Shown here: in pieces, positions 29,911-32,161 of the stretch
Layout: the number at the start of each line of letters is the position of its first letter
Position numbering within the stretch: the stretch's first letter is position 1
Translations under genes and position numbers: made by a program
DNA from: Candidatus Heimdallarchaeota archaeon
GTDB lineage: Archaea > Asgardarchaeota > Heimdallarchaeia > Heimdallarchaeales > Heimdallarchaeaceae
DNA length: 64,000 nucleotides
Assembly (NCBI GenBank): GCA_021399345.1
Contig: JAAFKI010000045.1
Span: forward strand, 179,228 to 243,227
Direction of reading: 5' to 3'
The notes under the pieces: generated by a model
The model's input: the letters and a program-made list of their open reading frames with translations, nothing else
Databases searched by the model: none
Told to the model about the DNA's origin: nothing

Positions 29911-29973
29911 ATTCTCATTTAGTAATTAGGAACTTTAACAGTTACATTTATCTACATTGAGCATATTTTCTAG

Positions 29974-30303
29974 ATGGACGAAGCGAAAGGGCAACTTTCG
30001 GCATATTGCTGAGGAACCTCCTGACTCCGAAAAACGATGTGGATGCAAATCCACCATATGAGAATATGGCTCTTGGAACAGAAACGAACGCCCCATTTTC
30101 GTAAACAATGATGCGATAAATAGAGTGGTAACATTTCTAGAAGTAAATTGCTGAGAAGAAATTGGGATACGATGAAACGGCCAAACATTGTGGAGCAAGC
30201 TTAAGTAGAGTTCATATGAACTGGGTAAAGCGCTTAGATGAATGTTGCCAGGAAGATCCTAAAGGCTTCCGAACAGAATCAGGGGTATTTCTGCATCGTC
30301 CAA
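29974..30303 (+). ncRNA. rnpB: RNase P RNA
   Basis: P1 ggacgaagc/gcatcgtcc (one mismatch); CR-I GAGGAACCTCCTGACTCC; CR-IV-like GGAACAGAAACGAACGCC; GATGAAACGGCC; GGAGCAAGCTTAAGTAGAGTTCAT...GAACTGGGTAAAGCGCTTAGATGAATG; CR-V ACAGAATCAGGGGTAT; GNRA hairpins gtggatGCAAatccac and catatGAGAatatg. Confidence 0.92.
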
Positions 30304-30309
30304 CAAATT

Positions 30310-30319
30310 TCTTTTTTTT
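30310..30319 (+). terminator. Oligo-T terminator downstream of RNase P RNA
   Basis: Run of T residues immediately 3' of P1. Confidence 0.55.
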
Positions 30320-30400
30320 TAGATGCTGAAAATTGCTTACAGTAAGTTTATTAAACCTCTTCTAAGATGTTACTTCGAATAAAAAAATAGACGTGTATAA

Positions 30401-32161
30401 ATGCTTAGGAGGTTATCGAACAGTAGCATTCTATCTATACTTGTAGGATTTTCCCTTTTTATTACAATATTAAATCCTGCATCTAATATAGCGATAGCTA
30501 TGAAACCTCCTATAGGGGACAATTCTCAAATTATTTATCAGAGCTATGAAAATGCTACTTTCATTTTTTATCCATATTTTGAAGAAATAACAAGAGGAGA
30601 GGATGACCTCAATCTAACCATGAAATTCTGTTATGAGAATATTACTTTGATTCCAGATTCAAACATTTATTATAATATTACAAACATACTGGATGAAAAA
30701 ATTTTCGAAGAGAAAGTATGGGTTAATACAACTGCAGAATTTAATCGTACAATTCCATGGCAGACATTTAATGGTCAAGATGATGGAAACTATACAATCA
30801 CTGCTGTTGCGAATAGTACTACAACTACATCTTATAACATTACAACTTATTTTACTCTCATAGTTCCTGATTTTGGACAAGTAAGGATGTTCTTTCCATC
30901 AAATCCTGCATTTCTTATTAGGAATCAAGATAATCAAGTTTCATGTGTTATTTCGAATGTAGGTGGAACTACAGTAACTAATGTCTCAGTAACTAATGAA
31001 ATTACAAAAACTGGAACAGTTGGTTCAATTACAAGATCTTATTCTATTTACAATTTAGAAATAGCTGAAGGAGCATTCCACGAAGATATAATAGGTTTTT
31101 ATCCAGATACTTATCTCTATCAAAAACACTCTTTCACTATCACTTATCGAACAATAGGTGATCCAGAGACGCTTAGAGTGTATCTTAGTGACCCCATTAA
31201 AATAATTGTGATGCCCGATATTGTCGTTGAAAATTTTCAGTTACCAATAAATGTGACCATGGGAGAGAAATATATTATTACGACTAATATAAATAACAGT
31301 GAAGAAGAATCACTAATTATTATTCCAAAGATTGTTTGTGATCAAATCAGTTTTTATGATGAATCTGCTATATCAATTCCAAAAGGTAATAATATAATCT
31401 CTATTTCAGGAACTCCTCTAGTAGATGGAGCATCTTCACTCTACTTTGGTTTTGATTTAGAATGGACTACTGTTTCTGAAACAAAGTGGTATTCTATCTT
31501 ACTTTTTACACAGTATCAACTTATATATATCATTCCACTAGAAATCCCCCCCATTATTCTACATCCTGGTGTATTTTTTGGTATTGTTTTTTCATCTCTT
31601 TTCATAGGATTAGCTTACTTTTCAAGAGATATTATACTTGGTATTGCTAGAAGAACTAGAACAACAAGTTCTCGGATTTTCCCTGAAGTTTCTTATCCTT
31701 TGGAAACAGTAATTCTTGATGGTTCAAATATTGCTTGGGAAGAGAAGAACGACTCTAACAAACCACAAATTAACAACATTGAATCCATGATTAACCGATT
31801 GAGTAGAGCCAATTTTAAGAAAATTATAACTGTAGCGGACGCAGCATTACGCTATCAGATAGATGAACAAAAAAGATTAGACAGATTAGTTAAGGAAGGA
31901 GCTATGAAAATGTTACCCGCAAGAGTTGATGGAGACAAGTTCATTCTAAGGATAGCAGAAGAGGAAAATGCTATGATTGTAAGTAATGATATGTTTAAGG
32001 AATTCAGAGAATCAACTCCCTGGATTGATGAAAGAAGGATCCCTTACACTATTTTAGATGGAGAAGTATACTTGCACCCAACTTCAGTTCTTCCCTCAAT
32101 TGAAATAGGTAGTAAAGAGAATAAAGAGAGAAAAGAAAACGATAATACCTTTGAAACTTAA
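30401..32161 (+). CDS. Membrane protein: extracellular domain, TM helix and cytosolic Zc3h12a/Regnase-like NYN (PIN) ribonuclease domain
   Basis: Signal-like N-terminus; C-terminal TM VFFGIVFSSLFIGLAYFS; then VILDGSNIAWEE...DGDKFILRIAEEENAMIVSNDMFKEFRESTPWIDERRIPYTILDGEVYLHP. Confidence 0.78.
   Translation: MLRRLSNSSILSILVGFSLFITILNPASNIAIAMKPPIGDNSQIIYQSYENATFIFYPYFEEITRGEDDLNLTMKFCYENITLIPDSNIYYNITNILDEKIFEEKVWVNTTAEFNRTIPWQTFNGQDDGNYTITAVANSTTTTSYNITTYFTLIVPDFGQVRMFFPSNPAFLIRNQDNQVSCVISNVGGTTVTNVSVTNEITKTGTVGSITRSYSIYNLEIAEGAFHEDIIGFYPDTYLYQKHSFTITYRTIGDPETLRVYLSDPIKIIVMPDIVVENFQLPINVTMGEKYIITTNINNSEEESLIIIPKIVCDQISFYDESAISIPKGNNIISISGTPLVDGASSLYFGFDLEWTTVSETKWYSILLFTQYQLIYIIPLEIPPIILHPGVFFGIVFSSLFIGLAYFSRDIILGIARRTRTTSSRIFPEVSYPLETVILDGSNIAWEEKNDSNKPQINNIESMINRLSRANFKKIITVADAALRYQIDEQKRLDRLVKEGAMKMLPARVDGDKFILRIAEEENAMIVSNDMFKEFRESTPWIDERRIPYTILDGEVYLHPTSVLPSIEIGSKENKERKENDNTFET

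Follow-up and report, generated by a model that had tools for sequence, protein, structure and literature searches.

Introduction

In Escherichia coli, helix P4 of the RNase P RNA carries AAG-U on one strand and CUU on the other. The active site of this RNA, among the most widespread of ribozymes, is formed by P4, which reviews rank as the most conserved region of the molecule (PMC4919922). The metals of P4 are bound by O4 of the bulged uridine and by two backbone phosphates, those of A50 and G51 in T. maritima (67 and 68 in E. coli numbering; PMC4919922). The uridine acts as a ligand of the catalytic metal (PMC4919922, PMC6565675, PMC11143913) and has been termed universally conserved (PMC6565675). 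In Methanocaldococcus jannaschii, replacement of this residue by adenosine (U42A) or its deletion (ΔU42) greatly diminished RNase P activity in vitro (PMC6565675); the mutational data drawn on here concern the bulge rather than base pairs 67 and 68. The active-site letters of M. jannaschii are G40 U41 U42, and the enzyme, which has G40-U41 at positions 67-68, is active when reconstituted, while yeast has A91 U92 U93 at the same site of P4 (PMC6565675). Given these letters, the AAG of the bacterial RNA was never a universal rule.

An archaeal RNase P RNA gene

The window (the whole stretch of 64,000 nucleotides that was analysed) contains an RNase P RNA gene, as the first-pass annotation had recognized. 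Positions 29979-30298 of the forward strand match the complete archaeal model RF00373 (RNaseP_arch, model positions 1-288) in cmscan at 151.8 bits (E 5.5e-43), above the curated cut-off of 84 bits. Pairing of P1 lengthens the gene to approximately 29975-30302 (+), from P1 to P1': the 5' strand of P1, GGACGAAGC (29976-29984, +), pairs with GCAUCGUCC (30293-30301, +), and these flanks re-pair across the window's genus. Alignment to the model by cmscan places CR-I, GAGGA (30011-30015, +), immediately 5' of P4 and identifies CR-V as ACAGAA (30273-30278, +). Upstream of the gene, a TATA-like box, TTTATCTA (29947-29954, +), with ACAGTTACA before it, keeps its position in the 15 genomes of the genus that have sufficient upstream sequence, and an ACAG-type element upstream of the box is also conserved. 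A T-rich run in the window, likely a terminator (30308-30320, +), has counterparts downstream of the RNA in most members of the genus. A single match to RF00373 was found in the window's genome, a fragmented MAG that is 88.6% complete, and the same genome encodes Rpp30 (PF01876, 5.0e-14) and Pop5 (PF01900, 7.7e-18).

Directly 3' of the RNA gene, 30401-32161 (+) encodes a protein that is probably anchored in the membrane and carries an NYN/Zc3h12a-like RNase domain at its C terminus (PF11977, 3.5e-18; best PDB match KHNYN). The two genes are adjacent in all 20 genomes of the window's family (f1) in which the locus was examined, down to a protein identity of 34%.

The P4 helix of the window

Rfam leaves P4, a pseudoknot, unpaired in its model. 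The two segments to which P4 had been assigned were nevertheless placed at CR-I and CR-V, with high posterior, when the RNA was aligned to RF00373 by cmscan, and the assignment agrees with the sequence itself and with that of relatives. The 5' strand, ACC-U-CCUGA (30016-30024, +; E. coli 66-74), consists of A30016, C30017, C30018, the bulged U30019, C30020, C30021, U30022, G30023 and A30024, while the 3' strand, UCAGG-GGU (30279-30286, +), consists of U30279, C30280, A30281, G30282 and G30283 followed by G30284, G30285 and U30286. The original reading of these strands as fully complementary was exact, since all eight pairs are Watson-Crick. From its place in the sequence and in the cmscan alignment, U30019 (+) corresponds to U69 of E. 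coli, U52 of T. maritima and U42 of M. jannaschii. Compared with E. coli, in whose numbering the pairs are given throughout, pair 67 is changed from A-U to C-G and pair 68 from G-C to C-G, while U69 is retained.

The ACC-U/GGU form of P4 is common to 18 genomes, comprising 17 of the window's genus and G023, a one-contig genome from a sister genus within the family. All 17 positions of P4 are invariant in the 17 members of the genus (17 species), whose RNase P RNAs share a mean identity of 83% and a lowest identity of 76%. As 186 of the 327 columns of the genus alignment are invariant, the naive chance of an invariant P4 is 5e-5. Structure, conservation and covariation thus argue, as had been proposed, for a functional RNA in which P4 has undergone compensatory change, not decay. 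Judged by its sequence, the window RNA is an ordinary RNase P RNA, and its compensatory P4 variant is real and shared across the family.

Variability of P4 in archaea

P4 was compared in 139 Asgard RNAs, covering 26 of the 29 family codes of the phylum, and in 39 archaeal outgroup genomes reached via named records. Motif extraction failed for a few RNAs, most of which were resolved from the Rfam alignments, and L108 (71 bits, poor CR-I) and L274 were omitted from the counts. The 39 outgroup RNAs vary at both positions: pair 68 is G-C in 20, C-G in 13, U-A in five and U-G in one, and pair 67 is A-U in 33 and G-C in six. Among the 139 Asgard RNAs pair 67 is C-G in 52, A-U in 46 and G-C in 38, while pair 68 is G-C, C-G, U-A or U-G. 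A mismatch at pair 68 (G.A, A.G or C.A) occurs in 19 of the 139, indicating that pairing at this position is not strictly required. C-G at pair 67 was absent from the ~90 non-Asgard RNAs read, which include the 30 best-scoring of the wider phylum around the Thermoplasmata order described below.

These counts do not bear out the view that P4 is invariant in sequence, for which E. coli had served as a bacterial yardstick. The description of the helix as near-universal survives in part; pair 68 swaps freely in archaea, whereas pair 67 is restricted to A-U or G-C outside the Asgards. The AAG/CUU identity at 67-68 is found neither in the window (ACC/GGU) nor in many of the archaea surveyed, and the identities of these pairs are therefore not defining for RF00373. 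Archaeal P4 is more variable than the bacterial yardstick suggests.

Pairing itself is largely maintained. A standard pair is present at 67 in 136 of the 139 Asgard RNAs (shuffle mean 60.0, maximum 77) and at 68 in 120 (shuffle mean 74.1, maximum 88). Shuffles of this kind ignore kinship, but a reduction to one entry for each of 69 genera agrees, with standard pairs in 67 of 69 at pair 67 (mean 30.2) and 63 of 69 at pair 68 (mean 36.2).

Several further features of the RNAs surveyed are recorded here. The f6 loci L026, L031, L036, L042, L043 and L047-L049 all have G.A at pair 68 (AGG-U/ACU). Loki-related RNAs from f19 genus g32 (L109, L111, L112) and from f18 (L106, L107, L110, L113) scored 58-80 bits, below the Rfam cut-off; these divergent, A+U-rich RNAs have an intact CR-I and P4, and several are near-complete. 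Two RNase P RNA matches per genome were obtained in G212 (L296 and L297), G060, G118 and G310 (contig C306), those of G310 lying ~2 kb apart on one contig.

Origin of the ACC/GGU variant

The history of P4 was reconstructed on a tree of RNase P RNA only, with P4 masked (~300 columns), on which parsimony counts are minima. Most families form clades in this tree, the exceptions being f19, f20 and f23, whose members are not cleanly grouped. Pair 67 requires a minimum of 20 changes on this tree, and pair 68 a minimum of 35; the majority of these lead to a standard pair. C-G at 67 has at least four separate origins. The sister families f2 and f4, from the same order, have ACG/CGU, and the ACC/GGU of the window is thus most simply the product of two compensatory steps. 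Pair 67 would have become C-G in the window's lineage, giving ACG/CGU, after which pair 68 would have flipped to C-G in the ancestor of family f1, giving ACC/GGU.

A mechanistic rationale may lie in the way in which P4 holds its metals. If these are held by the P4 phosphates and by O4 of U69, the Watson-Crick identity of 67 and 68 would be free while the positions remain paired, which would explain why the letters can change there and why they may drift by compensatory change. The M. jannaschii enzyme, which works with G and U at these positions (PMC6565675), offers a precedent for such freedom. The window RNA is very probably the working catalytic RNA of an Asgard RNase P whose pairs 67 and 68 drift in this manner, a reading in which both activity and mechanism are deduced from sequence comparison.

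Change and loss of the bulged uridine

The first-pass annotation viewed the window's P4 as a sign of unusual core evolution. This holds to the extent that C-G at 67 is special to Asgards, but the most unusual change, loss of the bulged uridine, is found in relatives. In the sister genus g2 (G021 and G022; L016 and L019) P4 reads ACU-A-CCUGA/UCAGG-GGU and the bulge is an A, although in an alternative register U68 is bulged and A69 lies opposite G. Two other Asgards, G061 of f9 (L055) and G084 of f16 (L082), have AAC-A/GUU, in which no U is available. A bulged A also occurs in 13 of the 22 genomes from the order of Thermoplasmatales archaeon JdFR-43 (L256, L307, L308, L310, L312, L313, L315, L318, L320, L324-L327), 12 with AAU-A/AUU and one with AAC-A/GUU. 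The other nine genomes of this order have a bulged U, as do all of the 30 best-scoring RNAs of the wider phylum to which it belongs. Finally, the bulge is absent from f13 (G078, G079 and G080; L075, L076 and L276) and from G163 (L092), where the helix is contiguous, AAU-CCAUC/GAUGG-AUU (or GGUGG-AUU), and cmscan places a gap at the bulge. The G163 bin has 9% contamination and the contig may be misplaced; bin contamination as the source of its bulge loss was rejected, as an identity of 85% between its RNA and those of f13 shows it to be a separate species.

By parsimony, U was replaced by A four times, lost once and regained twice, each figure a minimum. Apart from the bulge, the variant RNAs are well conserved (140-206 bits), and Rpp30 and Pop5 were found in g2, f9, f16, f13 and G163. 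Within the Thermoplasmata order no RNA position was linked to A69 at 90% on both sides. As no position tracks the A/U switch, an active enzyme would need either a metal site that accepts A or compensation by its proteins. Natural examples of a bulged A or a missing bulge, or descriptions of an Asgard P4, were not found in the literature searched, which covers a limited set of journals. On balance, the RNA-based RNase P of several archaeal lineages probably works without the bulged uridine.

Replacement of the U by A and its deletion, both of which greatly reduced M. jannaschii RNase P activity in vitro, therefore occur in nature, and close relatives that alternate between A and U on a nearly constant RNA background make the requirement for U69 testable. 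The survey indicates that P4 requires pairing and, in most cases, a bulge, but not particular letters at 67 and 68 and perhaps not even the U. A stronger anomaly than the P4 of the window, and the lead to pursue, is that relatives have naturally lost the bulged U.

Alternative explanations

One alternative is that a protein-only RNase P, HARP (PF08745, PIN_5), does the work and has left the RNA under relaxed constraint. Full-length HARP (183-229 bits) is indeed encoded in families f6 and f7 and in G023 of the window's own family, and f6, where protein-only RNase P may coexist, has the G.A mismatch at pair 68. In the window's genus, however, the PF08745 search found no full-length HARP, only weak partial matches at the end of a ~600-aa protein (20.7 bits in a 616-aa frame of G000), P4 is invariant, and Rpp30 and Pop5 are retained. 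Similarly, no full-length HARP was found in the Asgard bulge-variant lineages, where g2 alone gave a weak partial match, or in the JdFR-43 order, which gave weak partial matches only. Relaxation through HARP is thus rejected for the window's genus, where it is very improbable, and unsupported for the bulge variants. Even less credible is a pseudogene or an artefact of sequencing or assembly. The fragmented state of the MAG would be compatible with such an artefact, which is refuted by the matched change on both strands and the identical P4 in 18 genomes; conservation of the promoter-like box also opposes it.

It is also conceivable, though unlikely, that the C-G pairs are not the product of neutral drift but an adaptive change to the metal site, such as a stiffer P4 or a different affinity for Mg2+. 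The repeated origin of C-G at 67, in this sample confined to Asgards, and its fixation within the genus are consistent with this view, but sister families contain many other pair types that are equally stable. Compensatory drift at pairs 67 and 68 of a functional RNA is thus the preferred reading of the window.

Comparison with described RNase P RNAs

The window RNA resembles the RF00373 family in matching the whole model, in its CR-I and CR-V, in a P4 with a bulged U, in its single copy and in the presence of RPP genes in the genome. It differs in having C-G at pair 67 in place of A-U and C-G at pair 68 in place of G-C. The single bulged U of P4 is present in the window (U30019), whereas g2 has A and f13 has no bulge. 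With the M. jannaschii RNase P, known from cryo-EM (PMC6565675), the window shares the topology of P4 with one bulged U and a non-bacterial 67-68; a related organism, Methanocaldococcus sp. SG1, has AGU-U/GCU. The C-G at 67 sets the window apart from this enzyme and was seen in no non-Asgard RNA surveyed.

The type A RNase P RNA of E. coli has in common with the window RNA the CR-I and CR-V motifs and a P4 in which a bulged U separates three pairs from five, and is distinguished from it by AAG-U/CUU where the window has ACC-U/GGU.
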